Of a DNA stretch of 33,519 bases, positions 1 through 30,279 are shown in pieces (the first letter of the stretch is position 1; each line of letters starts with the position of its first letter). This DNA comes from Gammaproteobacteria bacterium (GTDB lineage: Bacteria > Pseudomonadota > Gammaproteobacteria > J025): assembly GCA_003696645.1 (NCBI GenBank), contig RFGN01000256.1, positions 1 to 33,519 on the forward strand, read 5' to 3'. Under the pieces are notes generated by a model. The model was not told where the DNA came from, did not search any database, and worked only from the letters and a program-made list of their open reading frames with translations. The position numbers were made by a program, and so were the translations under genes.

Positions 1-2343
1 CTTCAGGGCCTCTACTGCAGTGGAGGAGGCCTTCGGTATTCTTACTGTTCCTATGGGCTGATATTCTCTGAGCAGGAAGGACCCACGTCTGGTGGCTATT
101 ATACCAGAGTCGCCAAATACCTCAGTAGCAGCATAGGGATCTGAGAACTCGTAGAACGCTACTGCGGCTTCAACAGTGTTGGCGAATAGCCTCTGCTGCA
201 GGAAGCCTGGGCCCTGCATTTCTCTTCGGGCGAACTCTGTTATGTAGGCAGGCCCTATGCCTTCTCCTAGATTGTAGAGTAGTCTGAGGGCGGCGGCGGA
301 TCTGTCGGCCCCACTGGTTCTTCCGGCAAACCTGAGCTTCTTGTATCCTCTCTCTTCTGGTATTAGCCCCAGATGAGAGCTGGATGTTATGAGCCTTAGG
401 GTCTGGCCTTCGGTTATGAACTCTGGCTTACTAAGGAGATATCCAGCAGCTAGCTCGGGATCTCTATTGAGTGCCTTGGCTAGTCTATCTGATGCCTCTC
501 TAAGATCCTTCTGGGCTCTGGCTAGGGCTGCAGAGTCTCCAGAGCCTATTGCTATATTTCTTCTCTGTAGAGCTTCAGATATTTCTAGTTTGGCGGAGAG
601 TAGAGGGCCGTCGGTTCTAGACAGCCTCATGTCTCCGAGGGTGTTGGCTATGTAGGATACCGACCCATGTAGAGCTGTAGCTGACAGGGAGGGTATGCCG
701 CCGACCATGGGGACAGAACCTATTAGGTTCTTCAGAACGGCCGGCCTAACTACGGTCCTTCCCCCTACATCTACAGCAGCGGTTCCAACCTTACCCCCTG
801 AGACAAAGAAGGGAGCCCTGTATGTCTTCCTCAGGAGGTTGTCTAGGGAGAATACGATGTTCTCATCAGAGAGGGTATACTTGTCTAGTAGTCGATCCAG
901 GACACTGTAGAAAGCGTGGCCGAAGGTTGCGGTTCTTAGCCGACCGGCTCTCTCGAAGGATAGGGCGGCCGCACGATAGGTCTTGGGGCCTATGTGCAGT
1001 ACACCTCTCTGAGTTAGGGCGTCTGCCTGTAGGGGGAGGAACTTGAAGGATTGCGTATCGCCAAATCGGCCAAAAGCCAGGCTCGTATATCCTAGACCAG
1101 CATCCTGCAGGACGAATGTGGCATCCTTTACCCTGTCTGCCAGCTTATGGGCTACTCTACCAAACCTGCGCCCTATGGCTTGGCCGAACTCTTCTGTTAC
1201 GAAGCTAGTTAGCTGCTCAGCTCCCTTCTTGCCGTAGAAGAGATGTACCGGCGGGCCCTGTATTTGGTCGATTACATCGGCCCCATATATCTCTAGCCTC
1301 TTCAGTAGGGCTCTCTGCTCCGTGTAGGAGCCGATGTTCATCACGTCCTGAACTCGAGCTACGTCGTACTTGTTCAGGAGAGCTAGGTCATCTACTACGA
1401 AGGAGCTAGGAAGCGCCCCTATTCTCTGTAGATATTCCTTGAACCTCTTGGCAGCATACGGGTCTCTCTCTGCCCTTAGAAGGGCGGCATGTACCAGAGC
1501 CATGGAGACCCTAACGTCTACTGAGGCCTGGTGGCTGGCCCCTAGACTGGCTAGGTCTAGAGCCTTGTATGCCTCTGCGAACTCCGGTATTCTATTTATT
1601 ACTTCTGGAGTATAATACTGGACAGCCGGGACTATCTTCTTGTAGGCAATTCCTAGGTATCTAGGATCTATGCGGGCAGCAGCAGCTCCGGTTGCCGGGT
1701 TGAACTGAACACCGGCAGCCGCCTCCATGACACCACGGAGATTCTCCAGAGTAAAGGATTGTGGCCGGCCAGCAGCGAAACCCATGTCCCGACCGAATAT
1801 GGTCTGTGTTAGTTGTAGTGTGTCTAGTAGTGCCGCATTGGGACTTAGGCCACGGAACCCTTGAACGCCCCCGATCACGTTCATGTCGAAGGTGATGTTG
1901 TGGCCTATGATTAGGGTCTTCTGCTTGCCGCCCAGTATGCGGTTCATAAGATCCCCAGTCTCCCCCTCTGAGAGCACAGCTCCAGTGGATAGGAACTGCT
2001 GCATCACTCTCTTGTATTGAGAGCGGCCACCTGGGAATATAGCGTTGAAAGCTTCCGAGGAGAAAGGCTGAAACCGGCTTCTATCGTACTTGACGTAGAA
2101 GTGTTTGGAGAACGGCCCAGTTGCTCCTTGTGGGCCGAACTCAATACCCTCCATGCCAACGGAGAATATGTTTACGTTGGGCTGCTGGAATATGTCTGTG
2201 GTGGCGCCGACTACGTCAGCACTACGGATAAGATCCTTGGTCTCCAGGTCCAGAGCAGTCATGCGAAGCTGCTGTGCCGGCGATGAGCTGGCATGCATGA
2301 AGTCGAACAGCTTGGCAAATGTGTGGCTGGTCCTGTTCTTCAT
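1..2343 (-). CDS. DEDDh 3'-5' exonuclease domain at the N-terminus of a large tail-region protein (partial, C-terminus outside window)
   Basis: The frame is open for 781 codons from ATG at 2343 and runs off the left edge, so the protein is incomplete. The N-terminal ~285 residues carry the motifs of a DnaQ-like DEDDh exonuclease: Exo I ALDLET (D32, E34), Exo II GHNITFDMN (H148, N149, D153) and Exo III SHQASVDV (H271, D276, with the H-x4-D spacing typical of the family). All five catalytic residues are present, so 3'-5' nuclease activity is likely. Residues ~290-781 match no family I recognise; they are Gly/Ala/Arg-rich without an obvious membrane segment. The start overlaps the stop of the upstream gene as ATGA, so it is translationally coupled to the giant tape-measure-position gene. 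Such exonucleases normally sit with replication genes, so this position is odd. It may be a virion or ejected protein, or an enzyme encoded at the end of the late operon. The domain call is strong; the role is inferred. Confidence 0.8.
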   Translation of the reverse strand, partial: MKNRTSHTFAKLFDFMHASSSPAQQLRMTALDLETKDLIRSADVVGATTDIFQQPNVNIFSVGMEGIEFGPQGATGPFSKHFYVKYDRSRFQPFSSEAFNAIFPGGRSQYKRVMQQFLSTGAVLSEGETGDLMNRILGGKQKTLIIGHNITFDMNVIGGVQGFRGLSPNAALLDTLQLTQTIFGRDMGFAAGRPQSFTLENLRGVMEAAAGVQFNPATGAAAARIDPRYLGIAYKKIVPAVQYYTPEVINRIPEFAEAYKALDLASLGASHQASVDVRVSMALVHAALLRAERDPYAAKRFKEYLQRIGALPSSFVVDDLALLNKYDVARVQDVMNIGSYTEQRALLKRLEIYGADVIDQIQGPPVHLFYGKKGAEQLTSFVTEEFGQAIGRRFGRVAHKLADRVKDATFVLQDAGLGYTSLAFGRFGDTQSFKFLPLQADALTQRGVLHIGPKTYRAAALSFERAGRLRTATFGHAFYSVLDRLLDKYTLSDENIVFSLDNLLRKTYRAPFFVSGGKVGTAAVDVGGRTVVRPAVLKNLIGSVPMVGGIPSLSATALHGSVSYIANTLGDMRLSRTDGPLLSAKLEISEALQRRNIAIGSGDSAALARAQKDLREASDRLAKALNRDPELAAGYLLSKPEFITEGQTLRLITSSSHLGLIPEERGYKKLRFAGRTSGADRSAAALRLLYNLGEGIGPAYITEFARREMQGPGFLQQRLFANTVEAAVAFYEFSDPYAATEVFGDSGIIATRRGSFLLREYQPIGTVRIPKASSTAVEALK

Positions 2344-5300: not shown

Positions 5301-6668
5301 GGGATTGGGCAGATACTTGTCTAGCTCGTTGAGGGTCCCTACGTTGGACCTCAATTTCATCTCAGCCGACTTCTTCAGAACCTCGTAGTCGGTGTGTAAA
5401 CCTAGTAGTATTCTAGCTCTGTCCTTCAGAGGTAGGGCATTGAAGTCTACTATCTCCCCGCCGCCGGATATCTGAAGAACCCGACCACCAGTCACTCTCT
5501 GGAATGCTTCTGGGAAGAAAGCTCCTGCTGGGGTTCGCCCTAGGACCGACTCTGCAGCATACTTGAATGGACGCTTGTATACTACGGCCTCTCCAGTCTC
5601 AAGACCGGCAGCTATCTTGATCGGGTCTATGAGGAATCTCTCTATGAGAGACTTCCTACTTCTGTAGGCTGGGCCAATTCCTATGGAGGACTGCAGCTTG
5701 GCAAAGAAACCGCCCTCAGGATCTTTTACTTGGGCGCCGCCATATCTGAGGGCTGAGTATAGCTTCAGGGGATCCCTCTGGGCTTCCCTGAGCTTCATGG
5801 GCCTGTTGGATACGGCCTTAAGAAATACGTCTGCTGGACCCTTCTCAGGGTTGGGGACCGATATTGCTTCGTAGAGAGTGTCCCCGATGAAGTATTGTAG
5901 GCCCCGTCTAGCCTCTCCTGGGGGAGGAGGTAGGATAGCGAATCTCTGATTCGCGCCTAGGAGAGACTTTACTACTCGTCCCTGGCCGAACGGATCGAAG
6001 ATACTGAAGATCCGTCTTACGGTCTCTCTGGAGGCTATACGAGTATCTACTATCCTGCCAGAGGTTCTGTGCCTGTAGATCTGTGGATCTAGTAGGAGTT
6101 CGTCCTTTACCCAGCCCTTCTCTCTAGCGGTGAATAGGGCGTCCCAGGACTGTTTTCCTATGAGGGACTGCCACCTCTTCTGATCTTCGAGTACCTCTCC
6201 TATGGTTACCCGCTCTAGGTCGTGTGGGAATAGAGAGAGGTAGTTGTGGCCAGAGTTCTTGTTGTATATGTAGTCCTTGGCCCGCTCTAGGTAGGCGTTG
6301 GCTACTGCTCGGCTATTTAGGGCCCCCTGTACCTCAGTGAGAGCATAGACATCCTTTACTAGATCCGGCTCGTCTAGTATGGCCTCCTGAGATCGGATGT
6401 CTACCTCAGCATCATGTATGGTTCTTCTGGAGGGAGAACCGCTAGATAGAGGACCTCTTTCTGACCTTTCCGCCAGACGCTTTATGAGCCTGCCGGGAGC
6501 CATGCCGGCCTTACCGACTAGAGAGCCATAATTTACGTAGTGTAGGAAGTCGGCTATTAGCGGGGACCTATATCCCCGTATGGCTAGAGAGCCGAGATAT
6601 ATCGCCCCAAGCCCTGATGTGAAGGCATCAAGGATGTTCTTGTTTTCTCGGCGCTCTTCAGAAGGCAT
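2340..6668 (-). CDS. Giant tail protein in tape-measure position (1442 aa)
   Basis: This is the largest complete gene in the window. It follows the tail-tube and tail-chaperone-like genes directly, which is where the tape measure protein of contractile-tailed phages lies. If it is the tape measure, 1442 residues at about 1.5 angstrom each would give a tail near 210-220 nm. It does not look like a simple coiled-coil tape measure. Gly/Ala-rich hydrophobic stretches lie near residues 12-52, 535-565, 613-653 and 1140-1190, and could insert in a membrane during ejection. A central block rich in Tyr, Trp and Pro contains EEKHYYDRPY (residues 749-758), which I recall, without a search, from large virion proteins of other uncultured phages. 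The start at 6668 overlaps the preceding gene by 11 bases and the stop overlaps the exonuclease gene by 4. No peptidase or lysozyme motif was seen. Role inferred mainly from position and size. Confidence 0.65.
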   Translation of the reverse strand: MPSEERRENKNILDAFTSGLGAIYLGSLAIRGYRSPLIADFLHYVNYGSLVGKAGMAPGRLIKRLAERSERGPLSSGSPSRRTIHDAEVDIRSQEAILDEPDLVKDVYALTEVQGALNSRAVANAYLERAKDYIYNKNSGHNYLSLFPHDLERVTIGEVLEDQKRWQSLIGKQSWDALFTAREKGWVKDELLLDPQIYRHRTSGRIVDTRIASRETVRRIFSIFDPFGQGRVVKSLLGANQRFAILPPPPGEARRGLQYFIGDTLYEAISVPNPEKGPADVFLKAVSNRPMKLREAQRDPLKLYSALRYGGAQVKDPEGGFFAKLQSSIGIGPAYRSRKSLIERFLIDPIKIAAGLETGEAVVYKRPFKYAAESVLGRTPAGAFFPEAFQRVTGGRVLQISGGGEIVDFNALPLKDRARILLGLHTDYEVLKKSAEMKLRSNVGTLNELDKYLPNPTGGIEGVDRAFRSTFSKEFAEPRLTGAGELSPNYAAKYYAAPKGVFPSVAELSSFLAHRVSSLTSELGLAAKPSGSPLVNIGRLIAIPIVGKAIVEAAGYADFAIEEITGVSPVKALATVYAEARVAQQKLREALGIRAVAGALESAYPGSVESEGATIFRTIGLPLLSFLGGLRRGGLRGALMGAGASYTLFGGVGLSQPSEELREEYEGLRKVPVRKGALWGFGYTPFFGSDVSYFTYSWYHKLMTDYRTKSIYGSRREYYSKYTNVFGIPFPTPHSLFGLRQILDPYALEEKHYYDRPYLETAGRFDELPIVGPILSWIDQHIPIIGKPIKRMHSGYLLGMPSVPGVLQDRSVPPSAARRLGIAPPEPQELEWEDVSDITARTRQLAAVATEPLGVYKFALQLLGVDLEGAKSYTAASAAAIGSTGREFYGLGLGGLFGLTEPVRRFLLPEFSTPYRLAQRFNPIRNTMPTFLPGVDSDFLPDRDYFIDFHTGDPFTKIPEGEARLPGAGYEALSPLHSGVSGVYDVIDKLLILSDVAPYSYAFLKTRKEVEPIMESLPEGWRKRVEMALAQRDAVVNQIFAYPRFEDRGVADLNEKSQIEGAIRDIISVPIAQQAWDVITHDVLAEIPYFGTKFFPFRDAIERYRKERIYGAEFADWRDPINTIIRPAAYDIADTNVLGAAAKGAFLGVLMSNPLTNIINPIAPLRSPSIAVPSMAAAATALSVGRHAFLDKNFIPPETEREAETFKYLDYLTYAKGRALQIAAEEVGDDALAKSYEAVARKTIVGAQSAMDIRSAMTTPDRRFLNAFLSYPESSRNRVIHSLPTYYAEALQKVWYNDYSSTNEADEETLHYFSQKPIPAEDSLVWHPSIPTAVMKIKVMEGGIGGVSDNLHRFGFMGSQIREARERFPDIHVSSVRTLNAPNFESFAHNVNHALRTQFPFDPNRPIARYHGNSSLRAARYEVTTKSDRTDRTYYYIQDLMR

Positions 6669-7215
6669 CGGGCTTGTCTGCTGCCTCCGGACTCAGGAGG
6701 TCTTTGGCGGCTCTCTTCTTGTCCTTTCCTATCTGTGTCCCCAGTATGACTTCTGCCTTGGCTAGTAGGTCTAACTGCTGATGGATGTTCAGCTTACGAA
6801 CATCTAGTGGGGACAGGGACTTGAATGCTGTACAGATTAGTGTCTCTATAGTGTTTTCCAGGAGCGCCTGGTTCTGCCTATGCTCCTCGAGGAGATCGTA
6901 GAATTCATCCTGACTCTTGAAGGAAGAAAGACCTAATATGGCTTCTGCCAGAAGGTCTGGGAGGGCGGCCAAACACTTGGAAGATAGATACTCTTCCTTG
7001 TCTTCTACTCCAGGTATGTGGAGGGTGGCTTGGATACAGATCCACTCGTTCACCTCTGTGGGAGGTAGAAATGCTCCCACTTTGGTTAGGTGTCGGACTT
7101 CGGCAGCAGTTAGCGGGCGCACTACTACATCAAGTCCGAGGACCTGAACTAAAAAAAGGTGCTCATGCTCGGTGAGGAGCATGAGCACCCTATCGTTGGA
7201 GTGGCTACTGCTCAC
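6658..7215 (-). CDS. Tail assembly chaperone-like protein, second of pair (185 aa)
   Basis: A mostly helical, soluble protein lies between the tube genes and the giant tail gene, the usual place of the tail assembly chaperone that keeps the tape measure soluble. It shares a short pattern with the gene before it: DVVVRPLTAAEVRHL here versus LFIYRSLNRLEWKQI there. This beta-strand, Arg-x-Leu, helix pattern is common near the N-termini of phage tail chaperones. The proposed start is GTG at 7215; no Shine-Dalgarno sequence precedes it. The frame is open upstream to 7281, inside the preceding gene, so a +1 or -2 ribosomal frameshift from that gene is an alternative to independent initiation. A strong terminator-like hairpin overlaps codons 9-22. 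The C-terminus is charged and lysine-rich. Chaperone function is inferred from position and the weak shared motif. Confidence 0.6.
   Translation of the reverse strand: MSSSHSNDRVLMLLTEHEHLFLVQVLGLDVVVRPLTAAEVRHLTKVGAFLPPTEVNEWICIQATLHIPGVEDKEEYLSSKCLAALPDLLAEAILGLSSFKSQDEFYDLLEEHRQNQALLENTIETLICTAFKSLSPLDVRKLNIHQQLDLLAKAEVILGTQIGKDKKRAAKDLLSPEAADKPDAF
7151..7189 (-). terminator. Intrinsic-terminator-like hairpin inside the second chaperone-like reading frame
   Basis: Read on the minus strand, a perfect 13-bp stem (GGTGCTCATGCTC with GAGCATGAGCACC, plus-strand 7158-7170 and 7177-7189) closes a 6-base loop and is followed at once by seven T residues (7157-7151). This is the textbook form of a Rho-independent terminator. 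It lies at the start of an open reading frame rather than between genes. It could attenuate transcription so that the giant tail gene is made at lower levels than sheath and tube. Confidence 0.75.
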
Positions 7216-7219
7216 TACA

Positions 7220-7627
7220 TTATAGGCGAGTAGGTTCAGGAGCTGCGTTCGAGAAACCGGAGAGCTCAGTAATCCGGTCTGCTAGAGTCGTGACCCAGCC
7301 AGAGGGGAGATGGAGCAGGTCTGATTGAGTATCATATCTGGGGAATAGCAGCGCCTTGAACACTACCTCCTCCTCACCTTCATCCTTGTTCTCCAACACC
7401 TTTGTGGTGTCTACATTGCCATCAGTGCCCTTGGCTCTGTTTAGTAGGGCCTTCTGAATCTGCTTCCACTCCAGACGATTGAGGCTGCGGTAGATGAACA
7501 ACTGGTCTCCCAGAGTAACCATTTCTACCATGCAGCCAGCTCTCTTGGACTCACTGACTGCAGTTTCTACAGTTATGGCCTGCTGATCGGACAAGCCCAT
7601 TCCTTTTAGTGTGTCTGTAAGACTCAT
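7220..7627 (-). CDS. Tail assembly chaperone-like protein, first of pair (135 aa)
   Basis: A small acidic protein follows the third tube-like gene with an ATGA overlap (start 7627, previous stop 7624). Residues ~30-60 hold a strand-strand-helix pattern with LFIYRSLNRLEWKQI, resembling the fold of tail assembly chaperones and matched in the next gene. Phages often encode two overlapping chaperone products upstream of the tape measure, and the gene order here fits that arrangement. The stop TAA is at 7222-7220. The overlap with the open frame of the next gene covers about 60 bases. I see no classic poly-A or poly-G slippery site in it. Identity rests on position, size and motif; no catalytic residues are expected. 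Confidence 0.55.
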   Translation of the reverse strand: MSLTDTLKGMGLSDQQAITVETAVSESKRAGCMVEMVTLGDQLFIYRSLNRLEWKQIQKALLNRAKGTDGNVDTTKVLENKDEGEEEVVFKALLFPRYDTQSDLLHLPSGWVTTLADRITELSGFSNAAPEPTRL

Positions 7628-8247
7628 GTCGTTCTTATTACTCTTCTTGATCTCGCTATGAATTCATAGGTTTCGTAAAGGGGCTCGGCCGAGCCCTGGT
7701 CCCCAGCCATGTTGTAGGACTGGGATACATCTGTTATCTCTGCTCCCTCTATTTGCAGATACCACCTTGCCTCTTCAGGATCTGTGAAGTAAACTGCCAT
7801 GTCAAAAGGAGTTATGACATCTTCTGGAGGAGTAGTAACGATAGAGGGTTCTCTGAGTTCCTCTCCTATCAAGGATTCTATCAGAAGATTCTTGTCTACG
7901 TCTGACACCCTCCCATTAGAGGGGAAGAGTATACTTGATATCATCGTAGCTCGGGCATTAGCAGAAGTCAAGTCACTTGGAAGTAAGCTTAAGTCCTGTT
8001 TTGACCTAGGTTTACGGCGATTCTGTATGTCTAGAATCACAGAGGTGAGATACCCGGGCATCACGAAGTTTATAACGAGAAAGCCCTGAAGAACCTTCCT
8101 TGCTGGCGCAGTCTTGGTGTATTCGTAATCGTTGTATCCATAGATGGGAACTTTTGGTTGACTCTGCTTCCAGTCTAGTCGGAAGGACAGGTCTATATGA
8201 ACGCCATCTATGAAGACAGATACGTTGGAACCAGAAGGAAAATTCAC
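7624..8247 (-). CDS. Tail-tube-fold paralogue 3 (207 aa)
   Basis: This is the third of three consecutive genes that look related to each other and to the tail tube protein. Shared signatures include a PIYGYN segment early on (compare PIYTMG and PVRVLG in the other two), then a strand resembling GFLVINF (compare GSLVFKVF, GTLVFATL), then TPFDMAVYF (compare LPFDIVITA, PPFDILITA), and a closing block on an induced or desired property (EGAEITDVSQSYNMAGD), as in many tube proteins. It is the most divergent copy. A tube initiator, terminator or baseplate-hub adaptor with the tube fold is plausible, since T4-type phages use tube-like proteins at the tail ends. The start overlaps the previous stop by 4 bases. 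The role among the three is inferred. Confidence 0.6.
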   Translation of the reverse strand: MNFPSGSNVSVFIDGVHIDLSFRLDWKQSQPKVPIYGYNDYEYTKTAPARKVLQGFLVINFVMPGYLTSVILDIQNRRKPRSKQDLSLLPSDLTSANARATMISSILFPSNGRVSDVDKNLLIESLIGEELREPSIVTTPPEDVITPFDMAVYFTDPEEARWYLQIEGAEITDVSQSYNMAGDQGSAEPLYETYEFIARSRRVIRTT

Positions 8248-8861
8248 AGGGTTCCCTGATTCAACAGCTTTGTCTGGTCCAATACCCTCTTGACATTGGC
8301 CTCCAGCTCCGCAGGACTCATCTTGTCAAATGGAGTGGTGTATACTGTGGTTGGGGCGCTAAGCTGTCTGTTGGTGGAGACCAATGTTGTCGCAGCTACG
8401 GCTACATAAGTATATGTAGTTTCTACGTATATATCGTCTATGCTGTAGGCTGTGCCGTAGTTGGTCAGAGTGATTCCAAATATGCCCTGGCGGGCTATCT
8501 GACCCATCTCGTTGGCAGCAGTTATGAGTATGTCAAATGGGGGGAGCTGATCGGAGAAGAATAGCTCCTTGCTCTTGGCTGTCCTCTCTACTAGTCCGGG
8601 GCGTAGAACTGGAGCAAATGGATCTTCTTCGAGTGTTGCGAATACTAGGGTTCCTGCGAAGGTGCGGGCCCCCCTGTTATAGGCTATAGGGCTGGATCGT
8701 CCCAGCACCCTCACAGGATGTATAGACCTAGTAGAGGAGAGGGTTAGAGTCTGTATCGTACCCAGGCGGACGAATCGTGGCCGGTTGGACACCTTGTCGG
8801 TTTCCAACGGTATGTAGGCCACAATTTCTACATCAGCGCCTGAGTACGATATGGGGTTCAT
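8244..8861 (-). CDS. Tail-tube-fold paralogue 2 (205 aa)
   Basis: The protein aligns by eye with the preceding tube gene along most of its length. PVRVLGRSSP corresponds to PIYTMGNADP, NRGARTFAGTLVF to SRGKRGIAGSLVF, PPFDILITAANEMG to LPFDIVITAANEYG, and the SIDDIYVE segment to SIDDMSTD. It therefore very likely has the phage tail-tube fold. It carries a ~40-residue C-terminal helical extension absent from the first tube protein, and its codon use includes more ATA and AGA/AGG, which suggests lower expression than the major tube. It may be a tube cap, tube initiator or second tube subunit. The start ATG at 8861 shares one base with the previous stop (TAATG), and the stop overlaps the next start. 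Confidence 0.7.
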   Translation of the reverse strand: MNPISYSGADVEIVAYIPLETDKVSNRPRFVRLGTIQTLTLSSTRSIHPVRVLGRSSPIAYNRGARTFAGTLVFATLEEDPFAPVLRPGLVERTAKSKELFFSDQLPPFDILITAANEMGQIARQGIFGITLTNYGTAYSIDDIYVETTYTYVAVAATTLVSTNRQLSAPTTVYTTPFDKMSPAELEANVKRVLDQTKLLNQGTL

Positions 8862-9532
8862 TAGATCGTCTTGGTCTTACCCTGACCCAGAGTCTTGACG
8901 AAACCCTGGCTGTTCCAAGGAGTGATGCTCGTAGCGACGAAAGTGCAAGCCTCGTCAGTGCTCATGTCGTCGATGGACATGCCCGAACCGACGTTCAGGA
9001 TCTCTACGCCATGAATCGACATTCGAGAGAACGAGCCATACTCGTTAGCTGCAGTGATGACGATATCAAAGGGCAGGATCTGATCAGGATACCGGGGACG
9101 AGCCAGGATCTTGTCCAGAGTGATGACCGAGACGGTTGGATTCGCCGAACCGTCCAGGGTGCCGATCATGCCGGACGCCTTCTCGATAGTCGGGATGTTC
9201 ACATCGCCGATGACGAACAGGGAAGGAGTATCATTCCTGTTGGCAATGAACCCTTGGTCCCTGAACGCCTCCAGGAGGGCCGAGCGATCAAATACCTTGA
9301 ACACCAGAGAGCCTGCGATACCCCGCTTACCTCGGGAGAAGGAGCGGGGATCGGCATTGCCCATGGTGTAGATGGGGGCCTTCTCTCTCTGAACCGTGTA
9401 AGAGAGGCCCTGCAGTTCTCCGATCAGCTTACCACCGAACGTGACATGCATGTCTACGCCAGAGAAGCTATTGTAGCTCTTGCTGTAGACCGAAGTGGTG
9501 GATGCGTCAGAGGGAGGAATTCCTGATACCAT
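8861..9532 (-). CDS. Major tail tube protein (223 aa)
   Basis: The gene lies immediately downstream of the sheath, the standard place for the tail tube (inner tube) subunit through which DNA passes. The sequence is beta-rich with the tube-like features listed for its paralogues: a PIYTMG loop, SRGKRGIAGSLVF, LPFDIVITAANEYG, and a C-terminal strand block ending in the Lys-rich GQGKTKTI. An AAGGTAA ribosome binding site lies just before ATG 9532. Its codons favour ATC over ATA and CGT/CGA over AGA/AGG, unlike the two following paralogues, as expected for the most abundant of the three. No transmembrane segment or signal peptide is present. The assignment as major tube is well supported by context; no structure comparison was possible. 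Confidence 0.82.
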   Translation of the reverse strand: MVSGIPPSDASTTSVYSKSYNSFSGVDMHVTFGGKLIGELQGLSYTVQREKAPIYTMGNADPRSFSRGKRGIAGSLVFKVFDRSALLEAFRDQGFIANRNDTPSLFVIGDVNIPTIEKASGMIGTLDGSANPTVSVITLDKILARPRYPDQILPFDIVITAANEYGSFSRMSIHGVEILNVGSGMSIDDMSTDEACTFVATSITPWNSQGFVKTLGQGKTKTI

Positions 9533-9546
9533 AGTTATTTACCTTG

Positions 9547-11076
9547 TTAGGAGATGCTCTTTGCGAGAGACACGTCAAGAGTTATCTTGGTGACCTCGAA
9601 AGCAGGAACCAGAGTCAGAGAGATGGTGACCTCTCCTGCTACTACCTGCTCAGGAGTGGCAGATAGTGTGAAATCGTAGTCGTTTAGGGCGCTGCCCTTC
9701 ATACCCTGGAGAGCTTGATCGATCTCGTTCTCTAGAGCATTCATTCTAGCGCCGTTGTGTGCCTCGCCGATGTAGTTTTCAGCGATGGAGCGAACCAGGT
9801 CTACGGCGGTCTGAGTAATTCTCATGGTGGACATGAGAACGTAGTCGGACCGGACGAACTTGTTCACGTTGTGGGCGCCAGTAACTCCCTTGGCTATGAC
9901 GAAGCCCTTGGAACGGTTGTACATTGTTACTAGACGCATACCCGTGAGAGTGTTTGCTTGAGACCTGGACAGTAGCTTGAGGGGAAGGACTCCCTTCAAG
10001 AACTTGTTCGTTGGCGCCGAATGTGGTGCCAGGGAAGAGATTAGACCTGCCAGAGCAGCAGCACCGTCGGTTATGTAGGAGGTGTTGCTTAGATCTGCGC
10101 CAGCGGCAGCAGCCAGGGACTGAGTTAGGACAGAAGCGGCACGTATCGGAGCCGAGATGACCGATATGTATGCGCCGGCATCAACCTTGTTCCCGTTGCT
10201 GTCTACAGCGGCGTTACCGGCAGAATCCTTGGCCTGCCAAGATGTGAAGTAGCTAGTGCTGACTGCAGAGGAGCTAGCTGCAGAGGAGAACCTGTTGCCG
10301 TTCGTGTCGAAGGAGCCAGAACGGAAGTTGCCGTATATGGTGTCATATGTAGTTGCGGCCGAGAGACCAACCTCTCCGTGATACTCGTACCATTCGGTAA
10401 GTAGCTCGGTAGAGGGATCGTGGAACCACACTGACTTGAGTGGCGCTATTCCAGTCCCGCCCAGAGCAATTACTTCGCCGGATAGAGAGGCTGAACCGTT
10501 GGTTGCAAGCTCTCCAGACCTCTGGATTGCCCACCAAGTGGGCGGGGAGGTGGCTATTACGCCAACACAGGCGTTGTGATCGGCCGTGGACTGGTAGCAG
10601 AAGTCAGCTAGCTGCTTACCGAAGTTGTTACCTGCGCCAGCAGTGTCATCATCTATGTAGACACCAACAGGAACAACCACATCCACGTCCCTGTTCTTGA
10701 GGACGTTGTAGCCGCTCTGTAGCGCTGCAAATCGTGCCGAGTGTCCACTGTTGGGGTTGAGATATCCAAACAGCTCAGCACCAGTCTTGTGGTCTATTAC
10801 GAGAACCTCTATGTTCTGTGCGCCGGCATTCACAGCCTGCTCGATAGCCAGAGCTAGTTCTCCGGGGAATGGATCCGAGGGAACATCGCCGCTGAAGTAG
10901 AGGCTGTTTATGGCCTTGTCTACAGAGGAGACGGTAAGGGGCTCCATCAGAGGCACACCAGTGTTGCTGGTGATGCCCAGAAGAGTAACCTTAGGCCCCG
11001 CAGGGGGCGGCCCAATCTTGAGTCCTAGATCGTTTAGGACAGCATTCACATTGGGGAGAAAGTCATCGTTTGCCAT
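9547..11076 (-). CDS. Contractile tail sheath protein (509 aa)
   Basis: Length, position before the tube gene and sequence pattern fit the contractile tail sheath. The N-terminal part holds alternating strands and helices (KVTLLGITSNTG, then ELALAIEQAVNAGAQNIEVLVI). A central insertion domain covers roughly residues 100-330. The C-terminal third is the conserved region: MRLVTMYNRSKGFVIAKGVT, a run starting SDYVLMSTMRITQTAVD, an ENEIDQAL helix, and a final beta arm TISLTLVPAFEVTKITLDVSL, typical of sheath proteins and involved in the interlocking mesh between subunits. A ribosome binding site AAAGGTAA lies 11 bases before ATG 11076. Sheath subunits polymerise around the tube and contract to drive it through the host envelope. 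This gene makes the phage a myovirus. Confidence 0.92.
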   Translation of the reverse strand: MANDDFLPNVNAVLNDLGLKIGPPPAGPKVTLLGITSNTGVPLMEPLTVSSVDKAINSLYFSGDVPSDPFPGELALAIEQAVNAGAQNIEVLVIDHKTGAELFGYLNPNSGHSARFAALQSGYNVLKNRDVDVVVPVGVYIDDDTAGAGNNFGKQLADFCYQSTADHNACVGVIATSPPTWWAIQRSGELATNGSASLSGEVIALGGTGIAPLKSVWFHDPSTELLTEWYEYHGEVGLSAATTYDTIYGNFRSGSFDTNGNRFSSAASSSAVSTSYFTSWQAKDSAGNAAVDSNGNKVDAGAYISVISAPIRAASVLTQSLAAAAGADLSNTSYITDGAAALAGLISSLAPHSAPTNKFLKGVLPLKLLSRSQANTLTGMRLVTMYNRSKGFVIAKGVTGAHNVNKFVRSDYVLMSTMRITQTAVDLVRSIAENYIGEAHNGARMNALENEIDQALQGMKGSALNDYDFTLSATPEQVVAGEVTISLTLVPAFEVTKITLDVSLAKSIS

Positions 11077-12657: not shown

Positions 12658-14025
12658 CTAGAACATTGGGTTGTTTGTCCTGGCCTGTCTAGACAAGGAG
12701 GTGTTTCCTATGGGGGCGTCAGGCTGTGAGTACCGGTTTATGGGATTTATGTATCTGCCGTTGGGCCCATACCACAGCCTATCGTTGTAGATTCTCTCAT
12801 CGCCGGGAGTGGTAGATATTGCAAACTGCCAGCCCTTCTTTATGGTTTCTAGGGCTCTATCTCTCTCCTCACGTACACGGATAGCCTTCATGGCTACTCG
12901 TCCTATGAGCTGATCTACAGATAGGTTTAGATCTCCTACTTGATGCCTGTTGCCGGCTACCAGGAACTTCTCGTATTCCTGGTCCTCTATGATGTCCAGT
13001 ATGGTAGCGTAGAGAGTATACTTCGTCCTGGCCCAGTTCTCCTCTGTGAGGCTGAGGGACCTGCCTGTTTGCTCCCAGAGGATTATTAGGTTTTTCAGGG
13101 AGAGGGCGGCTATGTAGTCGTCTCTGACCATATCGCCGCCTATATGGCGAAGCTCCCTCTTTACCGTTCTAGGGTCTGGGCCTCTAGGGAACAGTTCCGT
13201 AGCTATTCTATAGGTCATACCGCCGAAACCATCGTTGTCGGTGGATATGATCTTGTCGCTGAGATGGACTTCTACGCCTGCGTTTTTGGGTAGGTCTTTA
13301 CCAAACGTGACTACTATGTCACTACCGGTTACGGATACTGTCCCGGTAGGGTATGCCCAATCTACTGTGTTGTCCGTATCTTCAGTCTTTAGGAGTTGCC
13401 CAGAAGCCAGGTATTCTTGGTCGAATAGAGGGAAGATATCGATATCTACTTCATCACTTATGTCCGGGGTTCCAGATACGGTCTTGGAGAACGTGAATCG
13501 GATAGTTCTATCCCCGGTGAGAGACGGAGAATTATCTGACGAGTAGTTCTTCGGCCGGACCTTCTCTACGACGAAGTCAAGCCCCAGGGCCTTTACGTTA
13601 GACGGAAGGAATAGGTCCCCCTCCAGAGTCTTGGACTGAGCCTCCTTCTCTATAGTGGTATCTACCTCAAAAAGATCATCCCCAGTTGTGAACTCTAAGA
13701 TTATGGAGGTAGTCAGATCGTCACTAGATCCGGTTCCGGAGAGGGACTGAGTTACTTTTAGATCGTTACCTACGATGATTATCCTGTAGAGAGTATTCTC
13801 TTTCAGGATATGGGTAGGCAGAACTGTTATCGTGAATGTTGAGCTGTCATAGGTTATGCTGACAGGCACCCTCGTCTGTGTAGATAGATCCATTAGGTGA
13901 ATGGTGTTCTCATTCACCGTGCTGGAATCTAGTGCATCCTGGAAAACTAGACGTATAGACTTGTTGAGGTATACGCCTGTTGACTTGTCTACAGGGTCAG
14001 ACGAGGATAGAACTGGTTCAGCCAT
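12658..14025 (-). CDS. Virion protein with N-terminal SbsA/Big_5-type Ig-like domain, probable neck or head-completion protein (455 aa)
   Basis: Residues ~5-115 match the SbsA-type bacterial Ig-like fold: an opening SSSDPVDKSTGVYLNKSIRL, then FQDALDSSTVNENTIHL, and a late ENTLYRIIIVG strand. The order (pre-condition, sum of strands, formation of a variable) is the usual one for this domain. A second similar beta-rich unit may occupy ~150-270 (TIRFTFSKTVSGTPDI, then PKNAGVEVHLSDKI). The C-terminal ~170 residues are helical and charged, as in connector proteins that bind portal or head. The gene shares one base with the preceding capsid paralogue stop (TAATG). Combining surface Ig-like domains with a connector-like C-terminus suggests a collar or neck decoration. 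Only the Ig-like part is recognised from sequence. Confidence 0.6.
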   Translation of the reverse strand: MAEPVLSSSDPVDKSTGVYLNKSIRLVFQDALDSSTVNENTIHLMDLSTQTRVPVSITYDSSTFTITVLPTHILKENTLYRIIIVGNDLKVTQSLSGTGSSDDLTTSIILEFTTGDDLFEVDTTIEKEAQSKTLEGDLFLPSNVKALGLDFVVEKVRPKNYSSDNSPSLTGDRTIRFTFSKTVSGTPDISDEVDIDIFPLFDQEYLASGQLLKTEDTDNTVDWAYPTGTVSVTGSDIVVTFGKDLPKNAGVEVHLSDKIISTDNDGFGGMTYRIATELFPRGPDPRTVKRELRHIGGDMVRDDYIAALSLKNLIILWEQTGRSLSLTEENWARTKYTLYATILDIIEDQEYEKFLVAGNRHQVGDLNLSVDQLIGRVAMKAIRVREERDRALETIKKGWQFAISTTPGDERIYNDRLWYGPNGRYINPINRYSQPDAPIGNTSLSRQARTNNPMF

Positions 14026-15200
14026 TAGACTTGATCATCAATAACTCTAGTAGTTAGAGAGGGGTCATTGCTCAGGTTGGCATTTACAGCGGGTATGGTG
14101 GCGACTATGTTGGACACCATATCAACGGGCCGTCTGTTGGACACGTTCTTGATAACCACAGAGGTTCCCTCTTGGAGGGCTAGGCCCGACCGGAAGAACA
14201 GAGACATACGAGAGAGGTCTCTATCTCTGTCTAGGCTCTCGTTTGTCCTTATGCCTGCGGAGTCAACAACCATAGGACCTACAGCATCTATATCGCACAC
14301 CAATATGTGAGATACGTAGTAGCCCTGGCTGGTCTTCTTTATAGGAACATATGGGGATAGTAGGATGTTCCAGTTGGCCGGGAACTGGCCTCTAGCCTCC
14401 AAAGATCGTCCTCTAGCAGAGCCTACATAAGGCACCTTGCTGGGCTGGCGGACTTGACTAGAGCCTGGGATGGTGAATAGGCGGTAGATACTGGGCTCGG
14501 AGAACACAATCCACATGAGTGGGTGGACTATGAGTGTGTTTGCCTGGTACCCGTTGTCTAGTAGGTCTCCATAAGCCTTGAAGAGATCGTCTGCTGTTAC
14601 CGAGCCGTTGTAGTCTCCCGCACCGTCTCTGCCTGTGGTGGACGGCTTTCCTGTGTCGTAGTTGTCGAACGACACGGTGGCCTTGCTGTAGAGCCTATCT
14701 ACTATGTCTTTCTCTACAGCCCTCCGAATGGCTCTAGCTCCTAGCCTCACATGCCGGCTTATCATCTGAGGAGTTCCCTTGTCTAGAGTCTCCTGAGAGA
14801 CTCTTACCGATACTCCCCACTTGGACATGTCTGCATAGCACAGAGCACCTAGAGATGTACTTGATTCCATAGGTGCTTGTCCGGGGGAGACCTTATGTGC
14901 TACGAGAGCTCCTGCAGCTAGGGTATGCTCCACAGCATCGAACGTATTTACTGGAACCTCGTCCAGAAGGGGCCTGACCACCTCTGTAGGCTCTTCAGCC
15001 TCTATGATATCCTCGTGGAGGATAGCAGGGGTGAAGAACTTGGCGAAGCCACCACTATCCTGTAGTGCCTCAAGTTCTACATTCAGTAGCTCTGAAGCGC
15101 TGCAAGTGCTGGATCTCCACTGATCCCTGAACACCTCATAGGCGCTTTTGATATTGCCCTGCTTGATCAGGTCTACCAGGGTATTTTTTAGTGAGTTCAT
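14025..15200 (-). CDS. Second HK97-fold capsid protein, paralogue of the major capsid protein (391 aa)
   Basis: The protein aligns by eye with the major capsid protein upstream. GDYNGSVTADDLFKAYGDLL matches GQFNGTLTLDDLMYAYGKMV; YQANTLIVHPLMWIVF matches FTPNALIMHPLAWQIF; NILLSPYVPI matches VIVSPFMSF; and RMSLFFRSGLALQEG matches KVKFRERYGLAVVNEG. The ~130-residue N-terminal region differs from that of the major protein and lacks its long charged helix. A GAGGAT ribosome binding site precedes ATG 15200. Paralogous capsid proteins in other phages (T4 gp23 and gp24) divide the shell between hexamers and vertex pentamers, so a vertex or minor capsid role is plausible. Its codon use is less biased than that of the major protein, suggesting fewer copies. 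Confidence 0.72.
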   Translation of the reverse strand: MNSLKNTLVDLIKQGNIKSAYEVFRDQWRSSTCSASELLNVELEALQDSGGFAKFFTPAILHEDIIEAEEPTEVVRPLLDEVPVNTFDAVEHTLAAGALVAHKVSPGQAPMESSTSLGALCYADMSKWGVSVRVSQETLDKGTPQMISRHVRLGARAIRRAVEKDIVDRLYSKATVSFDNYDTGKPSTTGRDGAGDYNGSVTADDLFKAYGDLLDNGYQANTLIVHPLMWIVFSEPSIYRLFTIPGSSQVRQPSKVPYVGSARGRSLEARGQFPANWNILLSPYVPIKKTSQGYYVSHILVCDIDAVGPMVVDSAGIRTNESLDRDRDLSRMSLFFRSGLALQEGTSVVIKNVSNRRPVDMVSNIVATIPAVNANLSNDPSLTTRVIDDQV

Positions 15201-16936: not shown

Positions 16937-18307
16937 TTAGACGCTGCCCTTGGGCGAATCGCCTGTTATGCTGCTCAGGTCGCCAGAGACAGTTCCGTGA
17001 CTTACGTTGACCACGAGCTTGTCAGAGAAGTCGAAGGACTTGGAGCCGACGAAGATGTCCTTCATCAAGGCTATTCCCTTGCCTTCGTTCACGACGGCGA
17101 GGCCGTAGCGCTCACGGAACTTCACCTTACGGAGATCCCTCTGAGGGACATCCCAATCCTCGGTGAATAGCTCCTCGTCTACGACCAGGAGACCAAGCTC
17201 ATTGGTATCTACCAGAGCAAGGGTAGTCCTCTTGGTCGAGGAATCGAAGGACATGAAGGGGCTTACGATTACTCGGAGAGGAACGGGGAAGATCGAGGGC
17301 ACGGAGCCCCGAGTAGTGGCGATCTGGCCTGGACTGGACACGTAAGTGTTCTGGTTCAGACCGCCAACACGCCACTGGGGAGCGCTGCCGGGAGAGCCCT
17401 GAGCCGCCTGCCACATGAGAGAAGCAAGGCCGTTCTCGAAGCCGAAGGCTCGGGCGATACCTTCATTGCCAAAGATCTGCCATGCAAGAGGATGCATGAT
17501 CAGAGCGTTGGGAGTGAAGCCCGAATCGACCATCTTGCCATAGGCATACATAAGGTCGTCCAAGGTCAGAGTACCGTTGAACTGACCTGCTGCGTTCATA
17601 CCTGTGGAGCTACGAACGTTGGGGTCGGTGTTGTCGATTACGGTGACGCCGTTGGTCGTGATCAGGTCAGCAACCTTCTTCTCCTTGTGGCGCGCTAGGG
17701 CCTGGCCGGCCTTGCGGAACAGGATGGAGAGAACGTCGAACTGACTGTATCGGACAGTCTCTTCGGAGACCTTGACAGCCACACCGGACTTTCCGATGGT
17801 CGCTACGACCTCTCCGCCCAGCTCGAGTTCCCTCTCTGGGTACTCTCCACCCTCTGGTATATCAGCGGCATAGATTGCTCCGAATGCAGGGATGACTAGC
17901 TGTCGCCCAGCAGTGAAGTTTATGCGCTGAAGTAGAGGGGTGAGGTTTAGGGCGGGCTCAATGGCGTCCCGAACCATGTTCGAGATTACACGAGGAATGA
18001 GAAGGGGGTGGTCCGTGGAAAAACCATCTGCGAGCATCTTCTCACGATACTCAGCATCCTTCTCGAGAAGCTCCGGGAGGGTTACACGCTGGTTTAGGCC
18101 ATCGATGAAACCGTTGTTCTCCCAGATTGCCCTGACCTTCTTGACACGCGCAGCATCCTTGGCCAGGCGAGGATCTACAGGGAAGAGTTCCTCTTCTTCT
18201 GTGTCCTTCTTGTGGGCCGCCTCTTCGATATCCCTCTGGATACGAAGTAGTACCTTACGCTGCTCCTCATCGAAGCACTTGAGGTCGTCGTCTGCTATCT
18301 TTGTCAT
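16937..18307 (-). CDS. Major capsid protein, HK97 fold (456 aa)
   Basis: The protein lies after the protease-scaffold gene and has HK97-type capsid features. A charged helical N-terminal region (~1-100) may act as an internal scaffold or delta domain and be cleaved by the prohead protease. It is followed by an N-arm/E-loop region (IPEGGEYPERELELG), a spine-helix-like stretch (ILFRKAGQALARHKEKKVAD), and the P/A-domain segment LDDLMYAYGKMVDSGF then ALIMHPLAWQIF. The ending RVIVSPFMSF, ALVDTNELGLLVVDEEL and KFRERYGLAVVNEGKGIAL is typical. The strongest ribosome binding site in the window (AAGGAGGT) precedes it, and its codons favour ATC and CGT/CGC strongly, as expected for the most abundant protein. 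Hairpins behind it may stabilise or end its mRNA. A second capsid paralogue lies at 14025-15200. Confidence 0.88.
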   Translation of the reverse strand: MTKIADDDLKCFDEEQRKVLLRIQRDIEEAAHKKDTEEEELFPVDPRLAKDAARVKKVRAIWENNGFIDGLNQRVTLPELLEKDAEYREKMLADGFSTDHPLLIPRVISNMVRDAIEPALNLTPLLQRINFTAGRQLVIPAFGAIYAADIPEGGEYPERELELGGEVVATIGKSGVAVKVSEETVRYSQFDVLSILFRKAGQALARHKEKKVADLITTNGVTVIDNTDPNVRSSTGMNAAGQFNGTLTLDDLMYAYGKMVDSGFTPNALIMHPLAWQIFGNEGIARAFGFENGLASLMWQAAQGSPGSAPQWRVGGLNQNTYVSSPGQIATTRGSVPSIFPVPLRVIVSPFMSFDSSTKRTTLALVDTNELGLLVVDEELFTEDWDVPQRDLRKVKFRERYGLAVVNEGKGIALMKDIFVGSKSFDFSDKLVVNVSHGTVSGDLSSITGDSPKGSV

Positions 18308-19218: not shown

Positions 19219-20778
19219 TCAGAGAATTAGTTTTCCTAGAAGGTCTTTGCGGTCAGGAGTATTGGTATCGTCCGACTCGCCGTCGGGGGTTACCTTTTTG
19301 TCGCTGACCAGAGACGGATTCTTGTCCGTCTTGGTAACAGTGAGAGAAGAAGTATCAAGTTCTAGAGAGAGGTCCTGCAGAGTGTCTCGTAGAGACTGTA
19401 CAGTTCTTTCAGCTAGAGAATCGACATAGGCGGCAAGGCTCTCGTCGTCCTTGATGTCCTCTGTACCGGGCTTCTTCAGAAGGATGCGATACTGAGCGAC
19501 CAGCGTGGCGTAGTCTTTCGCCACATCGCTCTGCATCTTCTGGAGGTCCTCCATAACCCTGGAGAGCTCTTCTTCCTTCTCTTCGAGCTTCTCTTTCAGG
19601 GTGGCGATTTCCTCATCCTTTTGGGTGATTTGCCCTTGCAGAGTCTTCTTTTCCTCACTGAGAGAATCTACGGTTGCTTGGAGTTTTTCAACTTCCTTGG
19701 TCATTCTATCTCTCTTAGTGGGTTGCGCGAGCTTGTCGTTTGTATCGCTCCCCTCAGAATCGGAGTCCCGGTCTAGGCGGCCATCGTCAGCATCGCCTTC
19801 GGGGATGTCTTCATCATCGGTAGCGTCGGTGGGGTGTCTGGAATCCCCGGTCCCCTTCTGAGATAGCTCGTCATCCTCTAGAAGGGAGTTCATGAAGTCC
19901 TCCAAGGACTCCACTGCGGCCTTAGGTACTGCTACCAAGACCTTGTTTCGTCTATTGACGAGAAGGTTCATTTCATCCCCGTTCCCGTCAATTAGTGTCA
20001 TTTCTGATATTATGCTTCTGTTAGCTCTTTCTGTGAATTCGATCAGATCTGCATCTCCGTCCTTCAGCTCCTCCCAGTCAGTAGAGACAACCTTTGCTCC
20101 AGGTTGGGCTGGGATAGTGACGAAGGAGACTTCGTGATACGTGAGCGGTCCCGTTATGGCGTAGCACAACCGCTTGCGGCCTTTTTCGTCTTCGTATACC
20201 TTTCCAGGCAGGTGCTCACAGGCTTTGTCGCTTCCACCCCCAAATATCCTATCGAACGCCGAAAGTAGTGGTTTGGAGCATACGGAGCAGGTCATTACTG
20301 GGCTACTCTGCCCGCTAGAAACGCTCAGATATCTACCGTCTAGGATCTTATCTATGGCGTCTGGGTCGGTTATCCTGGCCTTGATGGTTACGACACCGGA
20401 ACCCGACTCTCCCTTGGATGCTACACCAGGCTTTAGGTAATCTCTGCGGAAGTCATCCCCAGTTTTCAGGGCCGTGAACTTTCCGCCTATGATACGCCCT
20501 ATAGGATCAGACTGATGGTCGTGGTGGGTGAGTACGGGCTTGTCGAACTCAGCAGTGCCCCCATTCTCCCTGGAGAAGTAGGACTTGTAGCTCTTTCTTA
20601 CGAAAACCCCTGGATATACCCTGTTGTTGGCCAGAAGGCCAGAATGGGTAGAATTTACAGAGATTTCCAGAGCTGTATCGTCGCCGCTGGAGTCAAGGCG
20701 ATTCTTGGCGTCGCCGAGAATCCTCTTGCCTATCGGCTGCTCAATTATTTGTGTGTCTCTTATTTTTAACTCAGACAT
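19219..20778 (-). CDS. Prohead protease fused to scaffolding domain (519 aa)
   Basis: The N-terminal ~235 residues are a herpesvirus-type/HK97-type prohead serine protease. THHDHQSDPIGRI (H85-H88 region) carries the catalytic His, LSVSSGQSS (S153-S155 region) the catalytic Ser, and YHEVSFVTIPAQPGA (H215 onward) the conserved closing motif. Between Ser and the closing motif is an insertion with C164, C167, C187 and H189, probably a zinc-binding loop. Residues ~300-345 are highly acidic, ~355-430 form a long coiled coil (Lys/Glu/Leu-rich), and the tail is charged. This C-terminal half is a scaffold that would guide capsid assembly and be removed by self-cleavage. The gene overlaps the portal stop by 8 bases and comes before the capsid genes, as expected. 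Confidence 0.88.
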   Translation of the reverse strand: MSELKIRDTQIIEQPIGKRILGDAKNRLDSSGDDTALEISVNSTHSGLLANNRVYPGVFVRKSYKSYFSRENGGTAEFDKPVLTHHDHQSDPIGRIIGGKFTALKTGDDFRRDYLKPGVASKGESGSGVVTIKARITDPDAIDKILDGRYLSVSSGQSSPVMTCSVCSKPLLSAFDRIFGGGSDKACEHLPGKVYEDEKGRKRLCYAITGPLTYHEVSFVTIPAQPGAKVVSTDWEELKDGDADLIEFTERANRSIISEMTLIDGNGDEMNLLVNRRNKVLVAVPKAAVESLEDFMNSLLEDDELSQKGTGDSRHPTDATDDEDIPEGDADDGRLDRDSDSEGSDTNDKLAQPTKRDRMTKEVEKLQATVDSLSEEKKTLQGQITQKDEEIATLKEKLEEKEEELSRVMEDLQKMQSDVAKDYATLVAQYRILLKKPGTEDIKDDESLAAYVDSLAERTVQSLRDTLQDLSLELDTSSLTVTKTDKNPSLVSDKKVTPDGESDDTNTPDRKDLLGKLIL

Positions 20779-29827: not shown

Positions 29828-30279
29828 GGCCCAGTATTGTCTCCAGGTCTAAGGATGTTTATCGCTCCCAGGCCTAGATAGCCCAATCCTAGAGCCGACA
29901 TCACTCCCCCGCCCCTTATCAGAGAGGATCCTATAGTTGCGTGTACACCTAGACGTAGTGCTTCGGATGCTAGGGAGGTTGCGCCCAACGGGTCAATTCC
30001 TAAGGCACTAGCCCCAAGGACTGCTGCTGCGGAACCAGCAGCGAGTGCCCTATTCCTAGCAGCTATTCTGTTGGGGGGAGAGATCCTAATCTGTCCTCTC
30101 CTATTCAGTATGGCGGTCCTGCCAGACATGTAGAAGTCTGAGGTGGAGGAGATAGCCTTTCCTAGCTGATCGGCGTCATGTAGGCTTAGAGGCCCAGATA
30201 GCCTGACAGGAGACAGAGAGCCTACCAGGGGGCGGGCATCGTTGAGAGTCTCTAGAAATCCCTTGAAGAGTCTCAGCAT
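29821..30279 (-). CDS. Small Gly/Ala-rich hydrophobic protein, unknown (152 aa)
   Basis: Residues ~75-145 are almost continuously hydrophobic and rich in Ala, Gly, Leu and Ser (LAAGSAAAVLGASALGIDP and GGGVMSALGLGYLGLGAINI), compatible with two or three membrane-spanning or buried helices; the N-terminal half is polar. ATG 30279 overlaps the previous stop by 7 bases. Together with the two genes downstream it forms a group of hydrophobic small proteins between a membrane-anchored nuclease and the phosphoesterase. Lysis function (holin) is conceivable but the size and Arg content are unusual for that. No family recognised. Confidence 0.55.
   Translation of the reverse strand: MLRLFKGFLETLNDARPLVGSLSPVRLSGPLSLHDADQLGKAISSTSDFYMSGRTAILNRRGQIRISPPNRIAARNRALAAGSAAAVLGASALGIDPLGATSLASEALRLGVHATIGSSLIRGGGVMSALGLGYLGLGAINILRPGDNTGPW

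Follow-up and report, generated by a model that had tools for sequence, protein, structure and literature searches.

Why would a phage place a nuclease domain at the head of a large gene in its tail region? The question is raised by the left edge of the stretch of DNA analyzed here (hereafter the window), which has a length of 33,519 nucleotides. A minus-strand gene begins there with an ATG at position 2343 and encodes 781 residues (P0001), and its frame has no stop before base 1, as the window is an entire 33.5-kb contig (C392 of assembly G000). A sequence-only reading had noted the five residues of a DEDDh exonuclease in the N-terminal part of P0001, followed by at least 500 residues of unknown sequence, and had suggested that a tail-borne exonuclease might act on host DNA or on DNA ends at ejection. 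The features discussed below are collected in Table 1.

Table 1. Features of the exonuclease-encoding locus and of its apparent continuation on a second contig.
Feature	Position	Strand	Basis or remark
Putative exonuclease-polymerase gene, 5' part (781 codons)	1..2343	-	Contig end at base 1 truncates the gene
Predicted DEDDh exonuclease domain (residues about 23-285)	1489..2277	-	A7 profile and catalytic residues
Exo I motif TALDLET (D32, E34)	2239..2259	-	
Exo II motif IGHNITFDMNVI (N149, D153)	1873..1908	-	
Exo III motif SHQASVDV (H271, D276)	1513..1536	-	
Predicted virion RNA polymerase family, N-terminal region (residues 331-781)	1..1353	-	hhalign 537-781; alignment A12
P0002, upstream virion-protein gene, 1442 aa	2340..6668	-	Homology to MTATph1 CDS0026, KLEB27-3 gp033 and ME3_35
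Two small genes (185 and 135 aa), tail-chaperone position	6658..7627	-	Position only; cf. orfs 143/144 of 0305phi8-36 (PMC2147016)
Tail-tube-like and tail-sheath genes	8244..11076	-	PHROG 16991 tail sheath, E 8e-57; PHROG 9206
C224 ORF, apparent missing 3' half	G000:C224:3-3209		1068 codons; frame open at the start of the contig

The N-terminal region of P0001 is predicted to be a DEDDh exonuclease

All five catalytic residues (D32, E34, D153, H271 and D276) were confirmed in P0001 at the positions originally given, in the contexts TALDLETK, IGHNITFDMNVI and SHQASVDV, and the D-x-E, D and H-x4-D residues of the DEDDh class are present in the expected order. This strict ordered pattern arose in 1 of 20,000 shuffles of P0001. 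Taken alone, P0001 gives sub-threshold matches (Pfam E 0.14, PHROG E 0.038), and relatives were needed because the single sequence obtains no significant match in general libraries. An alignment of 14 homologous exonuclease domains (A7, consisting of P0001 and 13 distant homologues) has a median pairwise identity of about 20%, and its only invariant columns, conserved in 14/14 domains, are D32, E34, N149, D153, D174, H271 and D276. As the five catalytic residues are invariant at so low an identity, the active site appears to be under purifying selection, and the earlier concern that they might be lacking in all relatives is not borne out. The A7 profile, which includes P0001, covers its residues 23-329, while a profile built without P0001 recovers it at E 0.0042; none of the shuffled decoys appeared at E<=10 with this held-out profile. 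When compared to the PDB, A7 (again with P0001 included) matches ExoI, PolC, RNase T, TREX and Cas2-DEDDh, with a best E of 2.8e-10, and the Pfam RNase_T domain was found in 3 of 17 family members, mostly weakly. AlphaFold modeling of the domain yielded a low-confidence structure (pLDDT 48, pTM 0.50), for which Foldseek returned noise. The profile and motif data indicate that the N-terminal region of P0001 is almost certainly a DEDDh exonuclease domain, with its enzymatic activity predicted from these features.

Relatives share the upstream gene and a place in the tail module

As a query, P0001 retrieved no useful relatives in IMG/VR, phage records or the PDB, and only P0001 itself was recovered from 94 genomes of the same class. 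Relatives were reached not via P0001 but via the conserved upstream gene P0002, as profiles of its conserved end retrieved about 160 loci. P0002 homologues occur in the Moorella phage MTATph1 (CDS0026), the Bacillus phage KLEB27-3 (gp033) and the Acinetobacter phage ME3 (ME3_35), which also have a terminase in common with the window phage, and in all three the next large gene after the P0002 homologue precedes a baseplate-hub gene. Two alignments that mixed full and partial sequences (A8 and A10) misplaced the register of P0001 and were excluded from the analysis.

The exonuclease gene had been described as coupled to a gene in the tape-measure position. The coupling is correct, as the start of the P0001 gene overlaps the stop of P0002 by an ATGA (2340-2343), but the positional label belongs elsewhere: P0002 is homologous to the gene located before orf146, the 'tape measure' gene of phage 0305phi8-36, and it is the exonuclease gene itself that occupies the orf146 position. 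The name given to orf146 was based chiefly on a correlation with tail length (PMC2147016). In the window phage, P0002 could equally be the tape measure. Further upstream, the tail-tube-like and tail-sheath genes place the exonuclease gene in a predicted contractile-tail module; PHROG 9206 is named a major head protein, and KLEB27-3 annotates the same slots as tail tube.

Several other features of these genomes were observed. The portal gene of the window (20771-23713, minus strand) contains, between its portal matches, an insert that begins (CYSGDTQT) and ends (HGN) in the manner of an intein and is likely to be one (Pfam Intein_splicing E 0.0037, below its cut-off). Two different major-capsid-like genes (14025-15200 and 16937-18307, minus strand) both match PHROG 3922 and others, and KLEB27-3 likewise has two capsid annotations. 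A small nuclease-like gene upstream of the terminase (30273-31127, minus strand) matches a Cas4/CRISPR-associated exonuclease PHROG at E 3e-16, and a trypsin-like serine protease with an unusual N-terminus lies at the right contig end (32635-33390, minus strand; Pfam Trypsin_2 E 5e-17). By eye, MTATph1 CDS0026 (L002:24648-30497) contains a staphylococcal-nuclease-like insert at about residues 1415-1500 that is also seen in its KLEB27-3 homologue; a Pfam search with the MTATph1 insert gave no match at E<=0.01.

The remainder of the gene is related to a virion RNA polymerase family

The region that follows the exonuclease can now be assigned. Residues 331-781 of P0001 can be aligned to the N-terminal part of a polymerase family represented by L005, L006, L008 and L009 (alignment A12), and a profile comparison of the kind proposed in the sequence-only reading for residues 286-781 matches residues 537-781 to the L006 family (hhalign E 1.6e-4). 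The sequence previously described as unknown thus shares homology with the N-terminal part of a family of virion RNA polymerases.

The catalytic half of the gene is expected beyond the contig end. A search of the contigs of the same assembly with the polymerase-core profile A13, which represents the polymerase half of this family, identified contig C224 (E 2.1e-13), whereas KLEB27-3 gp034 used as a query gave no match in the window's own genome. The C224 ORF contains the motifs NPAQTSTHA...RDLDQD, in which RDLDQD, a β'-type DxDxD sequence located outside the window, is found at residue 597. It is followed by a gene of 2112 codons that is homologous to the hub gene following the polymerase in L006 (E 1e-148), as well as to the hub genes of MTATph1, KLEB27-3 and ME3. 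The GC content of C224 is 51.7%, compared to 51.4% for the window, and the tetranucleotide correlation between them is 0.964, as compared to at most 0.36 for four other readable contigs of the assembly, in which two more were masked. The apparent missing half of the gene has been located beyond the contig end, but because C392 and C224 share no overlapping sequence we infer their joining. Judging from L006, about 45 codons would be missing between the contigs, and the two parts very probably make up a single gene of about 1.9k codons. A 194,812-base contig of another assembly (G096) has the exonuclease half at its end and a polymerase half (RYPSFHG...GDQDGDQ) at its start, as expected for a circular or permuted genome cut within the gene.

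A DxDxD motif alone was not accepted as a polymerase; it was accepted once two independent profiles, the polymerase-core profile of the relatives (A6) and a core alignment that includes C224 (A14), both matched RNA polymerase chains at this site. The only invariant columns in A6 are RYP and DxDxD. Its best PDB match is the phiKZ RNA polymerase protein PHIKZ055 (E 0.0017), and it also matches cellular largest subunits exactly at the β' barrel. A14 matches bacterial β' subunits over about 170 positions (best E 0.0051), with RNA polymerase chains accounting for 39 of 41 among the matches listed. The PDB matches of both profiles fall at the same place, and the profiles align with one another (hhalign E 1.1e-5). 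The Pfam RNA_pol_Rpb1_2 domain was found in 4 of 17 family members, mostly weakly, and an AlphaFold model of the L088 core was of low confidence (pLDDT 43, pTM 0.31). As judged from these profile matches, the C224 ORF carries a β'-type double-psi barrel with DxDxD, from which a two-barrel enzyme is predicted.

Recurrence and distribution of the fusion

An exonuclease and an RNA polymerase core occur together in one uninterrupted ORF of 2.4-3.3k residues in 12 distinct relatives, and their layout is the same in 12/12 cases: the exonuclease is N-terminal (about residues 60-470) and the core lies at about residues 1760-2550. Because A7 and A6 were built from mostly the same proteins that they match, the PDB and Pfam comparisons described above were run as independent tests. 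KLEB27-3 gp034, which is annotated as a 'structural protein', contains all five DEDDh residues and an ADYDGD sequence in a single protein of 2434 residues. In every relative found, the exonuclease domain resides within a giant protein encoded in a late structural slot, so the possibility raised earlier that its homologues are standalone replication enzymes was rejected.

The two domains do not always occur together. The A6 profile detects no polymerase core in L086 or in MTATph1, which was searched whole, although the DEDDh residues are intact in both; in these proteins the exonuclease is located in the middle of the chain. In MTATph1 (L002:30512-37868), the exonuclease ORF is separated by a transposase gene from a short ORF that matches the C-terminus of the family, an arrangement that looks as if a gene had been split. 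Conversely, in the nearest kin of the window (L005-L012) the polymerase is present and an exonuclease was not detected. The slot protein of 0305phi8-36 has no A6 match. On a tree of P0002 homologues, the exonuclease is found in one large clade (KLEB27-3, MTATph1 and the kin of 0305phi8-36) and, separately, in the window, and under parsimony the exonuclease needs three changes and the polymerase seven; the polymerase assignments, made by profile or motif, carry less certainty for the most divergent rows. Because the window is nested among phages with a polymerase and no detected exonuclease, its domain may have been acquired a second time or retained from an ancient ancestor, and the weak mutual similarity between this exonuclease and that of the other clade does not decide between the two.

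Other proteins in the same slot were also noted. Giant tail-slot proteins with an RNA-polymerase-like DxDxD and no exonuclease occur in L004 (ME3_36), L160, L011, L012, L100 and L112; the slot protein of Acinetobacter phage ME3 has the motif GGDHDQDQ and is annotated as hypothetical. In a large clade of mostly freshwater IMG/VR contigs (L013-L084) that share the upstream gene, neither domain was detected in the slot.

Proposed function and its alternatives

The encoding of an exonuclease in the tail module is supported by these data, and its proposed role against host DNA or DNA ends is not the one that we prefer. Because the remainder of the gene belongs to a polymerase family, and because the C224 half carries the core, the protein is better read as an injected polymerase that possesses an exonuclease. 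As a whole, we favor a virion-injected two-barrel RNA polymerase whose N-terminal DEDDh exonuclease trims or proofreads RNA 3' ends, to which we assign a probability of about 0.45. According to this mechanism, the protein would either be a component of the tail or be ejected along with the DNA, and the first phage genes would be transcribed by the injected polymerase ahead of recruitment of the host enzyme. The exonuclease would act on the 3' ends of the RNA made by the attached polymerase, removing or trimming them in proofreading, backtrack rescue or the clearing of abortive transcripts, in parallel with the exonuclease domains of DNA polymerases that act on DNA.

The components of this reading differ in their strength. 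It is likely that the protein is virion-borne, as suggested by its position between the P0002 homologue and the hub gene in relatives, the 'structural' annotation in KLEB27-3 and the precedent of Thermus phage P23-45; both enzymatic activities are predicted from sequence. Action in cis on RNA 3' ends, with RNA rather than DNA as the substrate, is a more tentative proposal. Joint action with the polymerase is favored because the exonuclease is N-terminal in all intact fusions and its active site is conserved. However, two-barrel RNA polymerases are known to cleave RNA with the active site that they already possess, so it is not evident that they would require an additional exonuclease, and the domains are not strictly coupled (MTATph1 and L086 on the one hand, L005-L012 on the other). 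A narrower version, in which the injected polymerase has its own proofreading exonuclease, perhaps acquired twice, seems rather doubtful.

The proteins that have an exonuclease and no detectable polymerase core keep the host-DNA or DNA-end idea in contention. In one form of it, a serious competitor though somewhat unlikely in our estimation, the exonuclease is an injected effector that rides on a polymerase or ejection protein and degrades host DNA, host RNA or defence-related nucleic acid independently of transcription. This alternative stays alive because exonuclease-only proteins exist, with the domain in mid-protein; moreover, 'polyvalent' proteins fuse polymerases to effectors, as in the podovirus vRNAP that carries an ADP-ribosyltransferase domain (PMC5512222), and the closest solved relatives of A7 include ExoI, PolC, TREX and Cas2-DEDDh, which mostly act on DNA. 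Nevertheless, a passenger would be expected to have a scattered placement, rather than the constant N-terminal location seen in the 12 intact fusions, and neither toxin nor defence genes were noticed alongside it in the window. In a second form, the exonuclease would trim the phage's own DNA ends, or remove bound ends at ejection or at the start of replication, while the polymerase pulls the DNA in. The tail-module position is compatible with this role, and polymerase-driven DNA entry has been proposed alongside the tail-fused RNA polymerase of P23-45 (PMC10770324), but it is improbable, as there is no sequence evidence of DNA-end specificity.

Two further explanations concern the identity of the domains. 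The two-barrel enzyme could be a DNA polymerase or primase, with the DEDDh domain as its proofreading subunit, since archaeal PolD combines an RNA-polymerase-like catalytic core with a proofreading exonuclease (PMC4996933, PMC10721889) and N-terminal DEDD fusions are typical of DNA polymerases; this is very unlikely, as it is the largest subunits of RNA polymerases that the profiles match, the matches listed include no PolD chain, and the gene lies in a virion module, where the known precedent is RNA polymerases. Least credible is a degenerate or purely structural RNase-H-fold domain kept as a tail scaffold, for although L094 has apparently lost the catalytic His and 0305phi8-36 (L093) gives only weak exonuclease-profile matches in broken pieces, the catalytic residues are invariant in A7.

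Relation to known systems and significance

The closest parallel to the proposed injected polymerase is gp96 of P23-45, a virion RNA polymerase fused to a tape-measure tail protein (PMC10770324). Both are two-barrel RNA polymerases with DxDxD in a giant tail-module protein of the tape-measure region, and for gp96 both injection and the transcription of pre-early genes have been proposed. P23-45 differs in being a siphovirus, with the polymerase at the N-terminus of a 5,002-residue TMP that has a metallopeptidase domain, whereas the window phage is predicted to have a contractile tail and a DEDDh domain ahead of the polymerase; an exonuclease is not mentioned in the main text of the P23-45 paper (PMC10770324). 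The crAss-like phage virion RNA polymerase (Drobysheva et al., as cited in PMC7886860) and the phiKZ-type enzymes (PHIKZ055) are likewise phage two-barrel RNA polymerases. The phiKZ enzymes differ in being split over several subunits. To our knowledge, neither the crAss-like nor the phiKZ-type polymerases have a DEDDh domain. KLEB27-3 gp034 and 0305phi8-36 gp146 occupy the same slot between a P0002 homologue and the baseplate hub, the former annotated only as structural and the latter assigned as a TMP mainly from tail length (PMC2147016). DnaQ/epsilon, PolC and PolD DP1 also couple an exonuclease to a template-directed polymerase, and DnaQ and PolC are of the same DEDDh class; in contrast, the polymerase described here belongs to the RNA-polymerase superfamily and is encoded by a virion gene, and the PolD exonuclease is Mre11-like. 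N4-type virion RNA polymerases and 'polyvalent' proteins (PMC5512222) are similarly injected giant polymerases, some with effector domains, but the N4 enzyme is T7-like rather than two-barrel, the fused domains that are named are ART and others, and the main text of that paper does not mention DnaQ (PMC5512222).

Virion two-barrel RNA polymerases, a tail-fused example (PMC10770324) and N4-like polymerases with effectors (PMC5512222) are therefore already known. What appears to be new is the joining of a DEDDh exonuclease to a virion RNA polymerase, a variant of that enzyme; in the openly accessible literature, to which our search was confined, we found no report of such a fusion. Error correction in two-barrel RNA polymerases, all cellular enzymes among them, relies on the polymerase active site itself together with cleavage factors. 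If the reading that we favor is true, a dedicated DnaQ-type exonuclease within one and the same polypeptide would tie proofreading to transcription in a new way; alternatively, these phages may inject a nuclease together with their first polymerase. Both meanings are directly testable, as the cultivated phage KLEB27-3 carries an intact fusion. In either case, the analysis provides a candidate function for a giant gene that is annotated as 'structural', 'tape measure' or 'hypothetical' across a widespread lineage of large contractile phages.
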